This document shows, one piece after another, positions 23,137-41,470 of a stretch of 41,470 bases of DNA. A program made the translations under genes and the position numbers. Under the pieces are notes generated by a model, which worked only from the letters and a program-made list of their open reading frames with translations, was not told where the DNA came from and did not search any database. Source of the stretch: a virus; IMG/VR virus record IMGVR_UViG_3300049491_001001, positions 1 to 41,470 of that record. One strand, 5' to 3'. The first letter of the stretch is position 1, and each line of letters starts with the position of its first letter.

Positions 23137-23988
23137 TCAGAGCCTTTCCGCTAGTGCTCGGTACCGATCGAGCACATTGCTCGGCCGAATGATCCCCTGC
23201 TGGGGGAAGAACGTGTAGTGGCTTACCAGCGCGTTGCCGACCAGCGTATTCGGCTGTCCGATCCGGCGCGGGTGATGCACGGTGTGCCAGGACTCCTCCT
23301 CGTGCGGCACCAGCACGCCGGGCTCGTGCAGTCCGGCGTAGGTGCTGCCGAGGCAGGCGAAGGTCGAGACACTGAACTGAAGGCCGAGGGGGAGCTGGTA
23401 GTCCTGGTAGAGGAAGACGTCCGCCTGGTCTCCCTTCTCGATCTTGTCGAGTAACATCCCGTGCATCTTGATGCCGAAGTTGCCATCGGCCCAGCCGATC
23501 GGGTCCATGCAATACATGTTGACTCGACCCCAGTCCAACGGCACGATCCCGGCCTGCTGAAGGAAGTAGGTCACGATGGCGTTGTTCCACATCACCGGGA
23601 AAGAGCAGACCGCCTCCGGCGTTTCGAGCTTGTGTCTGACCAGGCGACTGATCGCCAGGTCATCCACATACACGATGTCGTCGTCGAACCTGACGTAGAC
23701 CGCGTTCGGGTCGGTCATGTACCGGTAGAAGAATCCGGTGTTGCGCTGCTTCGGCGTCAGGCGAGGGCAGCCCGCCGGTCGGGGAAGAGCCGTGATCCAG
23801 TCGTACTCCTTCGCCAGCGTCAAGGCATAGGCAAGATCTTCGATCTGATCCGGATCGGTGTTCAGGCAGAGTAGCCATTCGTCGACAACGCCGCGCGCAT
23901 GATCCCTTTTCAGATACTCGAACAGGATCGAGGCGGTCTCGCGCCGACCCCACGGCGTGAATGCCATGACCTTGTGGTCCTCGATCAC
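23137..23988 (-). CDS. GT-A-type glycosyltransferase
   Basis: A 283-residue protein. VYVRFDDDIVYVDDLAISRL (residues ~98-115) carries the acidic DxD-type metal site of GT-A enzymes; WLLCLNTD near 39 and a late HTVHHPRRIG fit the nucleotide-sugar and acceptor regions. With the GT-B enzyme and the epimerase just upstream it forms a sugar-transfer cassette that could decorate phage or host surfaces. GTG 23988 overlaps the GT-B gene stop. Confidence 0.78.
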   Translation of the reverse strand: MIEDHKVMAFTPWGRRETASILFEYLKRDHARGVVDEWLLCLNTDPDQIEDLAYALTLAKEYDWITALPRPAGCPRLTPKQRNTGFFYRYMTDPNAVYVRFDDDIVYVDDLAISRLVRHKLETPEAVCSFPVMWNNAIVTYFLQQAGIVPLDWGRVNMYCMDPIGWADGNFGIKMHGMLLDKIEKGDQADVFLYQDYQLPLGLQFSVSTFACLGSTYAGLHEPGVLVPHEEESWHTVHHPRRIGQPNTLVGNALVSHYTFFPQQGIIRPSNVLDRYRALAERL

Positions 23989-24986
23989 GAGAAAAGCACC
24001 CTCTCCCAGTCCAGGCCGAACTTCTGCATGATATTGCGCGACGCCCTGCCCCGCGCTGCGTCACCATACATCCTGCGCTTCTCGGGGTATTCGAGCAGCG
24101 ACCGGAGATGGCGGGTCCACTGATGCTCCTGATGAACCAGGAGCATTGCGCCGAGCTGACCGGAGTTCCATTCCAGGTATGGATAGGTAGCCGATGCGAT
24201 CAGCGGCGTGCCGTGCATCCCGGCTTCAAGGGCCTTCGTCGGGAACTTCGCGTTGTTGAACGGGTTGGATGAGTACGGAGCCAACTGGATGTCGAACGTC
24301 CCGACGTGGGCGATGTACTCATCGAAATCGCCGATCCACTCCCGGGCCATGACCCGCTCGGGATTGACGTTCTTCAGCATCGACATGACGCGGTCCTTGC
24401 CCATGCCGATGACCTTCAGGCGGACCTTCGAGCCGTAAGTGATCAAGGCCATGGAGATGGCGCGTGCTGCGAGCTGGAAGTCCGGGGCGGTCTGGCCCGA
24501 ACCTGCCCAGCCGATGGTCACGGTCTCGGGGTCATAGTCCCGGACGCGCTGAAGCAGTCCGGCATGAAGGCCGTTCGGGATCACCTCGGTCGCGGTCGAG
24601 TATGGGCTCCAGAGCTTCTCGCTGGCCAGCGTCGTCACATCGGCCAGGCTCAGAGCGCGGGCAAGCCTGGCCTGAGCAGCCTTGTCCCACGCCTGGAAGG
24701 CGCTGGTGTTCTCCGGCTGGACATGGAAGTAGTCATCGTCCAGGTCCAGCACCAGCCGGGGGCGCTGGCCGATGGGAAGCTCGGCCAGCCGCCCCCACAG
24801 GTCTAGGGCGCCGGGCCTGCTGAGCCGGGAGGCCACGATGGCGTCGTACGTCATGGCGGTGTCGAAGTTCAGGCTCATGGATTCCAGGCAGGTATGCCCG
24901 AGCCAGGTCAAGGCCTGGCTCGGCAGGGTCGCCCGATAGTGCGAACTGCCGTCCTGCGATGCCGTCCAGAAGAAGACGCGGCTCAC
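23985..24986 (-). CDS. GT-B-type glycosyltransferase
   Basis: A 333-residue protein. The N-terminal half (VFFWTASQDGSSHYRATLPS; LVLDLDDDYFH) and the C-terminal half (VTIGWAGSGQTAPDF; LAPYSSNPFNNAKFPTKALE; GTPLIAS) match the two Rossmann domains of GT4-like retaining glycosyltransferases; the KFPTKALEAG segment is the donor-binding region. Start GTG 24986 overlaps the previous stop (GTGA); in-frame codons upstream lie in the neighbour's frame and look non-coding. Confidence 0.85.
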   Translation of the reverse strand: MSRVFFWTASQDGSSHYRATLPSQALTWLGHTCLESMSLNFDTAMTYDAIVASRLSRPGALDLWGRLAELPIGQRPRLVLDLDDDYFHVQPENTSAFQAWDKAAQARLARALSLADVTTLASEKLWSPYSTATEVIPNGLHAGLLQRVRDYDPETVTIGWAGSGQTAPDFQLAARAISMALITYGSKVRLKVIGMGKDRVMSMLKNVNPERVMAREWIGDFDEYIAHVGTFDIQLAPYSSNPFNNAKFPTKALEAGMHGTPLIASATYPYLEWNSGQLGAMLLVHQEHQWTRHLRSLLEYPEKRRMYGDAARGRASRNIMQKFGLDWERVLFS

Positions 24987-25261
24987 GTCAGCCTTCTCTT
25001 CTCGACTATCCGGATCGTGTCGACAGAGGTTTCGCTGCAATAGGCATTGCCGACCTCGATCTCCAACAGGTGGATCTCGCAGACCGGCACGCCGTGCGTT
25101 TCGGTGTGCTCGCATGCGAAGCAGATGAGCCACTCCGGCTCGCGCTTGCAGAGGTGCCGCGTCACCACGCCGGTCGAGTCTCTTTCGTACTCGGCGAATG
25201 CGCACCGGTCGCCCTGATCGATGGCCTCTTCGGTCTCCGGTTCGATCTCAGTGATGGTCAC
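24983..25261 (-). CDS. Cys/His-rich small protein in the sugar cassette
   Basis: A 92-residue protein with Cys and His spaced to bind zinc: RCAF (~20), HLCKREPEWLICFACEHTE (~36-55), PVCEIHLLE (~59). The first 15 residues are acidic. It is wedged between the epimerase and GT-B genes, overlapping both. GTG 25261 has TGGAG seven bases upstream. No family recognised. Confidence 0.72.
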   Translation of the reverse strand: MTITEIEPETEEAIDQGDRCAFAEYERDSTGVVTRHLCKREPEWLICFACEHTETHGVPVCEIHLLEIEVGNAYCSETSVDTIRIVEKRRLT

Positions 25262-26168
25262 GGAAGTACTCCACGGTCTCGGGCAGCGCGGCCTCTAGGA
25301 CTCGGAACGAGTAGGGCCCGTTCGGCCAGAGCTGTCGTGTCGTAGTGGGATCGCCTATCACGACGACGCCAGGCGTCTCGCCGGGCCGCATGGGGATGTG
25401 AACGATCTCGGACGCGCTGTCCGGGACGGCATCGAGCACGGCTTTGGCGATGTCGTTGACCGTGGTCAGTCGGCCGGTACCCGCGTCGATCACCTGCCTG
25501 CAGGGAGCGGCGTTATTCATCAGGGCGCTCAGCGCGCTCAGCAGGATGGTGGCCACGTCGCCGACGTAGACCATGTCCATGACCTGATTGCCGTCTCCGT
25601 AGATCTCGATTGGATCATTGCTGAGTGCCCGCATGATGAATGAGGGCATGATCTTCCGGACCTTGGACGGGCCGTACGGAGCCGCGACTGACTGCCCGGG
25701 ACCGTAGGCGTTCAACGCCCGGACGACGTTGACCGGCAGGTCCCGGTAGTCCCGGTACATGAGGCAGAAGCGCTCGACCGTGTTCTTCGTCAGGGAATAG
25801 GTGTTGTTCTCGAACCAGTTCCCGACGCCGATGTTCACCAACGGTATGTCGTACGCCGAGCACGCCTGAAGGACGTTCAAGCCGCCCATGATGTTCGTTT
25901 CGGCGGCGGGATACGGATGTTCGATCGTCTCCTGAGTGCCGAGCAGGCCCGCCAGATGAATCACGCCGTCGCAGTGCGCCACGAAATCATGCACCGCGCT
26001 GCCATCCCGGATATCTCCGAAGAAGGTGTTGTCAATGCTTGACTTGCGCCAGCGCTGATGACTGAGGCGATCGAACGTCAAGACGTCGTACCCGAGCAGT
26101 CGGGCCTGCTTGACGACATGCGTGCCGATGAATCCGCTGGCGCCCGTGACGCCGATAACCTTGGTCAT
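25248..26168 (-). CDS. NAD-dependent sugar epimerase/dehydratase (extended SDR)
   Basis: A 306-residue enzyme. VIGVTGASGFIGTH (residues ~4-17) is the GxxGxxG NAD(P)-binding turn; VIHLAGLLGTQ near 69 and YSLTK (Tyr124, Lys128) give the SDR catalytic pair; ALNAYGPGQ and YVGDVATILL follow as in GalE/RmlB-type enzymes. It would change a nucleotide sugar used by the neighbouring glycosyltransferases. ATG 26168 overlaps the stop of the short upstream frame. Confidence 0.9.
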   Translation of the reverse strand: MTKVIGVTGASGFIGTHVVKQARLLGYDVLTFDRLSHQRWRKSSIDNTFFGDIRDGSAVHDFVAHCDGVIHLAGLLGTQETIEHPYPAAETNIMGGLNVLQACSAYDIPLVNIGVGNWFENNTYSLTKNTVERFCLMYRDYRDLPVNVVRALNAYGPGQSVAAPYGPSKVRKIMPSFIMRALSNDPIEIYGDGNQVMDMVYVGDVATILLSALSALMNNAAPCRQVIDAGTGRLTTVNDIAKAVLDAVPDSASEIVHIPMRPGETPGVVVIGDPTTTRQLWPNGPYSFRVLEAALPETVEYFRDHH

Positions 26169-38791: not shown

Positions 38792-39838
38792 TCAGACATT
38801 GCTGAGCACCCTGCCCAGAGTGCTCAGGGTCTCCCGGTCTAGCTTCTCCACTCCGCCGGACATCGCCCGGCTCATGTTCCGGCTGAAGGTGTCGGACCCC
38901 CGGGCCGAGGTGAGCCAGTGGGCCTCGGTGTTCACGGCCTGAAGCACGCCGTAGGCCGTGCCGGACCATGGCGCAACCCGCTCATCCCTGCGGTAGAGCG
39001 CCGTCAGGGCGTCGCGCCGATTGCCCGCCGTGGTCCGGGCCCGACCGGGTTCGTCCGGCACCGGGGCGACCTCGTCCAGGAATGCGAACCACTGCCGGTC
39101 CGTTACCGTGACGGCGCACAGTGCCTTCACCTGAGCGGAGAAGTCGTCCGCGATGCTCTCCAGCACCCCGAGCGCCTGCCGGGCGTCCGTCAGGCGAAGC
39201 GCCGAGTAGCGCGTGTGCTTGATCCGGAACTCGGCCCCGGACTCGCCGAGCGCCGCTGTGCACGTGTTGTCGCAGACGACGACGGTGACCACGCGCTTGT
39301 AGGTGGTCGGGATCGTTCCGTCGTGCGAGCTGACGGCCAGCAGGTGGGGCCGAATGTCAACGCCCTCCGGGGTGGTCAGCGTCTCGGGCGTCTCGATCTG
39401 TACCCACGCTTTCGCCCCGCCGTCCAGCAGGCCCGCAGATCCGATCTGGACCGAGTCGCCCAGGATCGTGCTCACGTTGCGGAGCAGGCCGTCGGAATAC
39501 TCGTGCACCCCGTACCGGGCGGAGTGCACGCCGAGCACCGCTCCGGTGTCGGACCGGAGCAGCACCTTGCGGCTCGGATCGGTCACGGTCCGGACCGGCG
39601 TGCCGTCGGGCGCCATGCCGGTCGCTTCGGTCAGGTCGGCCGGTACCTGCGCCAGCACGGGCGAGGTGACGACGCGCCAGCCGAAGAGCCGTTCGACAGC
39701 GCCGAACGGCACCGCGCCGTCGAAGTGATTGCCCTCTCCGATCTGGTGTTCGGCCACGTAGTGCCAGGCCTTGCCGCGCTTGTCGGTGAAGCCGATCAGG
39801 GTCTGGGTGTTCAGGTCGAGCATGCTCTGACGGGACAT
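38792..39838 (-). CDS. DUF932 / phage-plasmid-like protein
   Basis: A 348-residue protein. SRQSMLDLNTQTLIGFTDKR, RVVTSPVLAQVP, GVHSARYGVHEYSDGLLRNV, VVTVVVCDNTCTAALGE and IKHTRYSALRLTDARQALGV are typical of the DUF932 family, widespread on phages and plasmids, of unconfirmed biochemical role. ATG 39838 has AAGGAGAAGG upstream; an upstream in-frame start at 39874 is less likely. The promoter region carries a CRP-like site. Confidence 0.87.
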   Translation of the reverse strand: MSRQSMLDLNTQTLIGFTDKRGKAWHYVAEHQIGEGNHFDGAVPFGAVERLFGWRVVTSPVLAQVPADLTEATGMAPDGTPVRTVTDPSRKVLLRSDTGAVLGVHSARYGVHEYSDGLLRNVSTILGDSVQIGSAGLLDGGAKAWVQIETPETLTTPEGVDIRPHLLAVSSHDGTIPTTYKRVVTVVVCDNTCTAALGESGAEFRIKHTRYSALRLTDARQALGVLESIADDFSAQVKALCAVTVTDRQWFAFLDEVAPVPDEPGRARTTAGNRRDALTALYRRDERVAPWSGTAYGVLQAVNTEAHWLTSARGSDTFSRNMSRAMSGGVEKLDRETLSTLGRVLSNV

Positions 39839-39876
39839 GGTGCCTTCTCCTTCGGTCGGGATGGGTGATGACAATC

Positions 39877-39882
39877 ACCCTA
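39877..39882 (-). promoter_or_regulatory. -10 box of the DUF932 gene promoter
   Basis: On the minus strand TAGGGT fits the actinobacterial TAGNNT -10. It sits in AATCCACCTAGGGTGAT, which recurs as AATCCACCTAGGTTGAT at the 41309 promoter. No good -35 lies 17-18 bases upstream, suggesting activator dependence; the CRP-like site at 39929-39944 is centred about 66 bases before the expected start. Confidence 0.6.
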
Positions 39883-40274: not shown

Positions 40275-40465
40275 TCGTCGTATCCCCCGTCCCATCCTCC
40301 GGGCGAGTAGTCGTGCCAGGCTCGCCAGCCGAAATCGGCGATCACTCCGGCCCGGAAGGCCGCGTAGGCTGCCGCACTCGGCTGCTCAGTTCCGCCGTCC
40401 GGGTCCCGGGCCTCGATCGCCCTGAGGATGGCCGGATCGGTCTGGACGGCATCGTTGCGGCTCAT
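40271..40465 (-). CDS. small acidic hypothetical protein
   Basis: A 64-residue protein (SRNDAVQTDPAILRAIEARD; AAAYAAFRAGVIADFGWRAW; HDYSPGGWDGGYDE), helical with an acidic, aromatic tail. ATG 40465 overlaps the previous stop (ATGA). No family recognised. Confidence 0.72.
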   Translation of the reverse strand: MSRNDAVQTDPAILRAIEARDPDGGTEQPSAAAYAAFRAGVIADFGWRAWHDYSPGGWDGGYDE

Positions 40466-40728
40466 GCCCTGTCCTCCTCACCGGAGCTGAACCGCCAGGT
40501 ACTCACCGGCGCCCGGAGCGCCGCCTGGTCCTCCTCACCGGAGATGACCAGCAGGCGGCGCAGTTCGTCCAGCGTGCCGCCCGGCAGGGAGTCCCGGAGC
40601 GTGTCGTGCAGGAGCCTGGCCTCGTCCTTGGCAGACCAGCCATCCCAGAACGTGCTGAGTTCCATGTGCGGTGCGAGCTCGATCGTGGCGCCCGGACGAG
40701 TCCAAGCGGCTCGGATGGTGATGTTCAT
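40462..40728 (-). CDS. small hypothetical protein
   Basis: An 88-residue acidic protein (NITIRAAWTRPGATIELAPH; STFWDGWSAKDEARLLHDTL; GTLDELRRLLVISGEED). It repeats SGEED twice near its C-terminus. ATG 40728; an AAGGA lies about 12 bases upstream. It follows a long hairpin that separates it from the 41101 gene. Confidence 0.72.
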   Translation of the reverse strand: MNITIRAAWTRPGATIELAPHMELSTFWDGWSAKDEARLLHDTLRDSLPGGTLDELRRLLVISGEEDQAALRAPVSTWRFSSGEEDRA

Positions 40729-40780
40729 GGGGGTGAAAGTCCTTTCGTGGTCGGGGTTTTCGGTCTGGCGACCGTGGCCA

Positions 40781-40817
40781 CGGCCGGGATGCCTTGCAGG
40801 ACAAGGCATCTCGGCCG
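40781..40817 (-). promoter_or_regulatory. 16-bp hairpin between two leftward genes
   Basis: The arm 40781-40796 (CGGCCGGGATGCCTTG) pairs with 40802-40817 at all 16 positions, one of them G-U, around CAGGA. It follows the stop of the 41101 gene and precedes the 40728 gene by ~50 bases. No T-run: a partial terminator or processing site. Confidence 0.7.
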
Positions 40818-40828
40818 GACCAGAGTTG

Positions 40829-41101
40829 TCAGGCGAAGGTGATCCGGGCCGCGTTGAGTGTGTCCCAATAGCGGCACCAATCACTGAAGCTGACGGCTGC
40901 AGTGTTCTGTGCCAGAGCTTCGCTGATTCGGCCGACGGTGTCGGTGGTGATCAGGCCGAGCTTCTCATTCGCCGCGAGGAACCGGCCGAGTCCGCCGTAG
41001 AAATCCTCGTCGATGACGGTGGCGACGTAGGCCATGGCGCGCTCGGTCAGGCTGGCCGGCACGCCGGTGATGGTGAGCGTCTCGCTCGTGAGCTGGCTCA
41101 T
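40829..41101 (-). CDS. small hypothetical protein, first gene of the right-end operon
   Basis: A 90-residue protein (TSETLTITGVPASLTERAMA; VIDEDFYGGLGRFLAANEKL; ALAQNTAAVSFSDWCRYWDT), probably alpha-helical after a short strand. ATG 41101 has AAGGAAGGAACC upstream. It is first after the promoter at 41309-41338, with an about 200-base leader that contains the parS palindrome. Confidence 0.75.
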   Translation of the reverse strand: MSQLTSETLTITGVPASLTERAMAYVATVIDEDFYGGLGRFLAANEKLGLITTDTVGRISEALAQNTAAVSFSDWCRYWDTLNAARITFA

Positions 41102-41138
41102 GGTGGGTGGTTCCTTCCTTGGTCGGGGGCTGCAGCAC

Positions 41139-41168
41139 CGGCCCTTGTTTCACGTGAAACAAGGGCCG
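41139..41168. promoter_or_regulatory. perfect parS (ParB-binding) site in a 30-bp palindrome
   Basis: TGTTTCACGTGAAACA at 41146-41161 is exactly the bacterial chromosomal parS consensus, including the GTTTCACGTGAAAC core used in actinobacteria. The symmetry continues outward (CGGCCCT/AGGGCCG) to 30 perfect bases. No ParA or ParB is encoded in the window, so any partner would come from the host. Confidence 0.85.
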
Positions 41169-41308: not shown

Positions 41309-41338
41309 AACCTAGGTGGATTCGGTGATTGGTGTCAA
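41309..41338 (-). promoter_or_regulatory. leftward promoter of the right-end operon
   Basis: On the minus strand TTGACA (41338-41333), 18 bases and TAGGTT (41314-41309) form a good promoter. The -10 overlaps ACCTAGGT (41310-41317), also found at 39877-39890 and at both genome ends. The CRP-like site at 41360-41375 is centred about 65 bases upstream of the expected start. Confidence 0.72.
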
Positions 41339-41387: not shown

Positions 41388-41416
41388 TTGACAGAGTGAT
41401 GGTGATGGACTAGTGT
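41388..41416 (+). promoter_or_regulatory. rightward promoter reading across the genome end to the terminase genes
   Basis: TTGACA (41388-41393), exactly 17 bases, and TAGTGT (41411-41416) make a strong actinobacterial promoter. The expected start, near 41423, is the centre of the palindrome TGCACCTAGGTGCA (41417-41430). If the ends are joined, transcription enters the terminase and structural block. Confidence 0.78.
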
Positions 41417-41430
41417 TGCACCTAGGTGCA
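41417..41430. promoter_or_regulatory. 14-bp palindromic operator candidate at the start site
   Basis: TGCACCTAGGTGCA is perfectly symmetric and centred on the expected transcription start of the rightward promoter. The same ACCTAGG core covers the -10 boxes of the two leftward right-end promoters, so one regulator may read all three. Confidence 0.65.
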
Positions 41431-41470
41431 CGGGGGGCGTGCACGGGGGGGGTCGGTCGCAGACCCCGGG
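41418..41470. repeat. right copy of the genome-end redundancy
   Basis: This repeats the first 38 bases of the window with an inserted CGTGCAC plus G-run, giving two GTGCAC-G-run units and an eight-G stretch. The difference may be real, or it may be a sequencing problem in poly-G. Confidence 0.75.

Follow-up and report, generated by a model that had tools for sequence, protein, structure and literature searches.

A perfect 16-bp parS site of the bacterial chromosomal type lies in the leader of the right-end operon of a phage genome in which no ParA or ParB gene was found. The window (the whole stretch of viral DNA that was analysed, 41,470 nucleotides) holds this site at the centre of a long palindrome that is best explained as a composite, its 16-bp core being a candidate ParB site and its arms part of a leader hairpin. 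Since the site is perfect, and since actinobacterial ParB loads at 16-bp parS sites and recruits SMC (PMC7083940), we infer with considerable confidence that host ParB would bind and load here. The reading as a whole, that a host ParB loading site occupies a slot for leader hairpins and confers a conditional benefit on the phage, is somewhat less secure, and we regard it as probable.

The parS palindrome and the genome around it

The right end of the window contains the following features (strand is given where one applies).

38792-39874, minus strand: gene of a DUF932 protein (PF06067, phrog_1221)
40462-40728, minus strand: second small gene of the leftward operon, 88 aa from the ATG at 40728, no family
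40781-40817: second leader hairpin of the same operon, without parS; a strong predicted hairpin
40829-41101, minus strand: first small gene of the leftward operon, 90 aa, no family
41139-41168: perfect 30-bp palindrome around parS; predicted RNA hairpin with a 13-bp stem, -23.1 kcal/mol, z -6.5
41146-41161: parS, TGTTTCACGTGAAACA, consensus match 16/16
41309-41338, minus strand: leftward promoter-like site, TTGACA-18-TAGGTT, consensus match only
41388-41416, plus strand: divergent rightward promoter-like site, TTGACA-17-TAGTGT, consensus match only

An earlier note on this DNA had described a perfect parS within a 30-base perfect palindrome in the leader of the right-end operon, and both parts of that description hold. 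The 16 bp match the chromosomal consensus with 0 mismatches at the centre of CGGCCCTTGTTTCACGTGAAACAAGGGCCG, which is the longest gapless palindrome of the window, and even with 3 mismatches allowed the window yields no further parS. The site lies between the leftward promoter-like site and the first ATG, at 41101, and transcription from the predicted promoter (41338-41309) would put parS ~140-160 bp into the leader. Both promoter-like sites combine a perfect TTGACA box with a TANNNT box. A repeat, TCCTTTCGTGGTCGGGG, is common to the two leaders of the operon (40740-40756, and 41112-41128 in the parS leader), and the 90-aa first gene has no relatives in viral contigs. CCTAGG palindromes at 39879, 41311 and 41421, set in CCTAGGTGGATT in two cases and in TGCACCTAGGTGCA in the third, overlap with, or lie next to, the promoter-like sites at the right end and the region upstream of the DUF932 gene; they look like operators of some phage regulator.

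The remainder of the window is that of a tailed phage: terminase, portal, major head protein and tape measure genes on the left; an endolysin-like gene, exonuclease and endonuclease VII further along, then a primase-polymerase and a helicase; and at the right end, reading leftward, the DUF932 gene and small genes without known family. The terminase is ~45% identical to those of Streptomyces and Microbacterium phages, and the host is therefore likely to be actinobacterial. (Relatives of the large terminase, at 718-2448, with 36-42% identity, occur in Mulchroom and MiniFlayer, two satellite phages of Streptomyces, and larger Streptomyces phages have related terminases as well.) An imperfect terminal repeat at 1-38 and 41418-41470, with GCACCTAGGTGCACGGGGGG...GGTCGGTCGCAGACCCCGGG at both ends and differences in a G-run and an insert, implies that the genome is probably complete, and also that transcription from the rightward promoter-like site (41388-41416) would run on into the terminase genes. 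Positions 76-185, which immediately precede the first gene, comprise two tandem ~54-bp copies (GCACCTCTGAAATCCGTCGATTTTCTGGAAGCCCTTCAAAGTTGATCTTGAAA). At 23985-26168 a glycosyltransferase-like gene adjoins a gene for an NAD-dependent epimerase, a pair that suggests that DNA, virion or host surface is modified with sugars.

The claim that this genome lacks ParAB and an integrase stands in the sense that ParB_N (PF02195), ParA-type AAA_31 (PF13614), tyrosine recombinase (PF00589) and resolvase (PF00239) all failed to match in the window at E<=10, while positive controls matched. A ParB of the phage's own, encoded elsewhere in its genome, is ruled out by the lack of a ParB_N match.

Host-type parS across phages

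Exact copies of parS occur in 301 isolate phage records (many of them near relatives and hence of fewer independent origins, with at least 12 unrelated lineages represented), against 0 and 2 records for two control palindromes of the same composition, the 2 matching another part of the query. A random 16-mer is expected ~0.5 times in this collection. Virus contigs give the same picture, with exact parS in at least 120 and the two control palindromes in 0 and 1. With ~1e-6 perfect copies expected in the window (1.3e-6 for independent bases, 1.5e-6 under a dinucleotide model), these near-empty controls rule out a chance origin of parS. By name, the phage records are those of Listeria (90), Microbacterium (49), Arthrobacter (30), Gordonia (25), Lactobacillus (13) and Bacillus (11), with microviruses and others also present; Escherichia, Salmonella and Klebsiella are not among the ten commonest names (at most 7 records each). 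The chromosomes of E. coli and its relatives have no ParABS.

Among the matches listed for the at least 120 virus contigs, called ORFs hold 50% of the parS sites but 87% of random positions (p = 2e-26), and 88 of 146 sites have a palindrome that does not extend past the 16-bp core. Because the arms usually end there, the core would be the part that is kept, an outcome to be expected from selection for ParB binding. (The 15-base arms of the window's palindrome exceed those of every virus-contig site among the matches listed.) The class-wide enrichment, taken together with the bias toward intergenic positions, argues that phages keep parS by selection rather than by chance. Contamination with host chromosome is ruled out as a general cause by the isolate phages, which carry parS at conserved places. 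Enrichment across phages is in itself no proof of function in the phage of the window.

Most carriers resemble the window in that no ParB gene was found: ParB_N is absent from 46 of the 50 parS-bearing contigs of at least 16 kb (the other four have a match, three of them over the cut-off) and from 19 of 20 named parS phages, Paschalis being the exception. The carriers include Listeria phage P100, the T5-like Vibrio phage phi 3 and the phi29-like phage Goe1, which we take to be of virulent types, so that plasmid life cannot be read off from parS alone. The idea of a host-type parS on a phage without ParAB is well supported by the enrichment, the intergenic bias and the usual lack of a ParB gene; plasmid partition does not follow from them.

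With regard to location, parS lies within 5% of a genome end in 7 of 18 lineages (nominal p 0.001), a tendency that is only suggestive, the records being non-random, some genome starts arbitrary and the end-most site having been taken for two phages. Phage phi 3 has parS at 2934-2949 and 111303-111318, between A1 and A2 in the terminal repeat and thus in DNA that is expected to enter first, as well as a parS-like site with 1 mismatch at 821. Two virus contigs have five perfect parS sites within ~1 kb (L017, 2657-3444; L044, 10535-11462), resembling the centromere cluster of a plasmid or chromosome.

A leader-hairpin slot in Gordonia phages

In Gordonia phages of the genera Orchidvirus (PatrickStar, RobinSparkles, Gibbles) and Woesvirus (Woes, Hail2Pitt, Luker), a perfect parS is centred in a palindrome of 30-36 bp and, as in the window, the hairpin is located between leftward genes at the right end. 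Orchidvirus genomes share with the window a DUF932 gene, small leftward genes and a right-end parS (the palindrome there is 32 bp); in PatrickStar the DUF932 gene lies just downstream of the parS hairpin and its product is 42% identical to that of the window. Woesvirus parS hairpins are of 30 and 36 bp. Arms measure 16 bases in PatrickStar, 18 and 15 in Hail2Pitt and 15 in the window, and the two Hail2Pitt hairpins enclose an identical 16-bp core in different arms. The Gordonia phages differ from the window in having two parS sites per genome, other arm sequences and genomes of 73-82 kb; as far as compared, only the right-end operon is shared.

The intergenic element of Woesvirus has conserved flanks and a variable hairpin. 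Its slot is occupied by parS in Woes, Hail2Pitt and Luker, while Teal and Bianmat have CACATG in place of CACGTG at one site, and unrelated hairpins are found in the slot in Anamika, Charianelly and Lahirium, and in the Montyvirus phages Jellybones and Sombrero. In Anamika no parS is found even with 1 mismatch allowed. The search of related phages for a conserved palindrome that the earlier note proposed therefore has a divided outcome, in that the hairpin slot is kept in the Gordonia phages and parS is swapped or mutated in some Woesvirus members. Since these relatives lost or mutated parS yet kept the hairpin, parS is dispensable there. What this arrangement suggests is two superposed features: a leader-hairpin slot, which would account for the long arms, and a parS core that can occupy this slot. 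The window conforms to this scheme.

Could the palindrome be no more than a leader hairpin in RNA or DNA (an attenuator, terminator or processing site) with an incidental match to parS? The conservation of the Gordonia slots with variable content, and the window's second leader hairpin without parS (40781-40817), are what one would expect of an element of this kind, and the window site could act solely as an RNA hairpin. Against this, the chance that a given perfect 16-bp palindrome holds the parS half-site is ~6e-6, and the identical 16-mer recurs with different arms. An intrinsic terminator is ruled out: the stem is strong but no T-run (U-tract) follows it on either strand, and a terminator scan does not return the site. 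We consider a hairpin with an incidental parS improbable.

The distant relatives of the window are free of parS, and this, like the loss or mutation of parS in Woesvirus, counts against the preferred reading of a ParB loading site in a hairpin slot. Queries with the terminase, DUF932 protein, helicase and first gene found no close relative that includes the right end, only distant ones (the terminase query returned one 6.7-kb fragment). Neither the 13 records retrieved with helicase, DUF932 or terminase nor three Rhodococcus phages with a DUF932 relative have the site.

Bacterial chromosomes (Streptacidiphilus jeojiense, Corynebacterium glutamicum) have the same 16-bp type of site, but there the sites are several and parAB is in the same genome. 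One Streptacidiphilus site, clustered with other parS sites, forms a 36-bp palindrome whose GGGCCCTTG arms are those of the window. Only this one Streptacidiphilus chromosome shares the extended arms in a chromosome search, and a single match is not enough to identify the host, so that an assignment on these grounds was rejected.

Possible roles of host ParB in retention, regulation and partition

Precedent for use of host ParB by a phage comes from phi29: with the lytic cycle stopped by Spo0A, Spo0J mediates entrapment of the phage genome in spores (PMC9437464, citing Meijer et al. 2005). Like the phage of the window, as proposed here, phi29 relies on the chromosomal ParB (Spo0J) of its host without encoding one; the window has the host-type parS and no ParB was found in it. 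The phi29-like phage Goe1 also has a perfect parS, but in a coding gene rather than a leader hairpin. phi29 differs in being a small Bacillus podovirus that uses host ParB for spore entrapment, which is not implied for the window. Within the open-licence literature no survey of host-type parS in phages was found, and phi29/Spo0J is the only documented case found of a phage using host ParB.

When phage DNA enters the cell, host ParB-CTP would load at parS in the leader, and clamps of ParB would slide across the neighbouring region of divergent promoters, perhaps with SMC brought along. Where cells grow slowly or are poorly permissive, a genome coated with ParB might thereby be anchored to the segregating nucleoid and its early transcription damped, so that the infecting genome would be retained and not lost, following the logic of phi29 and Spo0J. 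Anchoring and retention of the infecting genome is our leading, albeit speculative and tentative, proposal for the purpose of the site. It is ranked above regulation, and both are ranked above classic plasmid partition.

Nearly equal to anchoring, and likewise speculative, is the possibility that the main effect of ParB clamps is regulatory and depends on the host, with repression or insulation of the leftward operon and of the divergent promoter that reads rightward. The location of parS between a promoter-like site with perfect TTGACA and TANNNT boxes and the first ATG, adjoining a divergent promoter-like site, speaks for such a role, as does the repression by P. aeruginosa ParB of promoters adjacent to parS3 and parS4 (PMC5521831). 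On the other hand, B. subtilis genes adjoining parS are unaffected by loss of ParB (review, PMC7022226), and many viral parS sites lie outside promoter leaders. On this evidence regulation as the main function is possible but doubtful.

The earlier note favoured a plasmid prophage, an extrachromosomal replicon that borrows host ParABS for stable partition. The phage has its own primase-polymerase and helicase, no integrase was found in the window, and a single parS is enough for chromosome maintenance in C. glutamicum (PMC7083940). Actinophages with parABS (RedRock, Alma, Miko; PMC7157519) combine extrachromosomal maintenance with centromere-like sites. The RedRock type encodes ParA and ParB and has arrays of 8-bp direct repeats (PMC7157519), and the window departs from it in both respects, with one 16-bp host-type palindrome and neither protein found. 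Against a plasmid prophage, no repressor, RepA or partition gene was found (RepA without a dedicated search), and the temperate DUF932-relative phages REQ1 and Madraxi carry recombinases and no parS. A parS common to phage and chromosome could, moreover, cause incompatibility. Since parS is common in virulent phages (P100, phi 3 and Goe1 among them) and is gained and lost among Gordonia phages, it neither implies plasmid maintenance nor is needed for it, and partition of a plasmid through host ParABS is an unlikely purpose of the site.

Least probable of all is that the phage titrates ParB off oriC or marks its DNA as self against an SMC-type defence. The contigs with up to five parS copies (L017, L044) would suit titration, but a single site per genome is a weak sponge before replication, and there is no direct or specific evidence for either function.

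Phages probably borrow the chromosome segregation protein of their hosts far more often than has been documented. On balance we lean slightly toward recruitment of host ParB through host-type parS as a widespread, convergent strategy of phages, including virulent ones without ParAB, and one that in actinophages is plugged into interchangeable leader hairpins at the right end. ParABS and SMC have so far been studied as housekeeping machinery; perfect parS sites in phages without ParB suggest that ParB acts on infecting genomes as well. If this is true, chromosome segregation proteins are a general host factor of infection, with consequences that would touch genome retention, early transcription and possibly defence.
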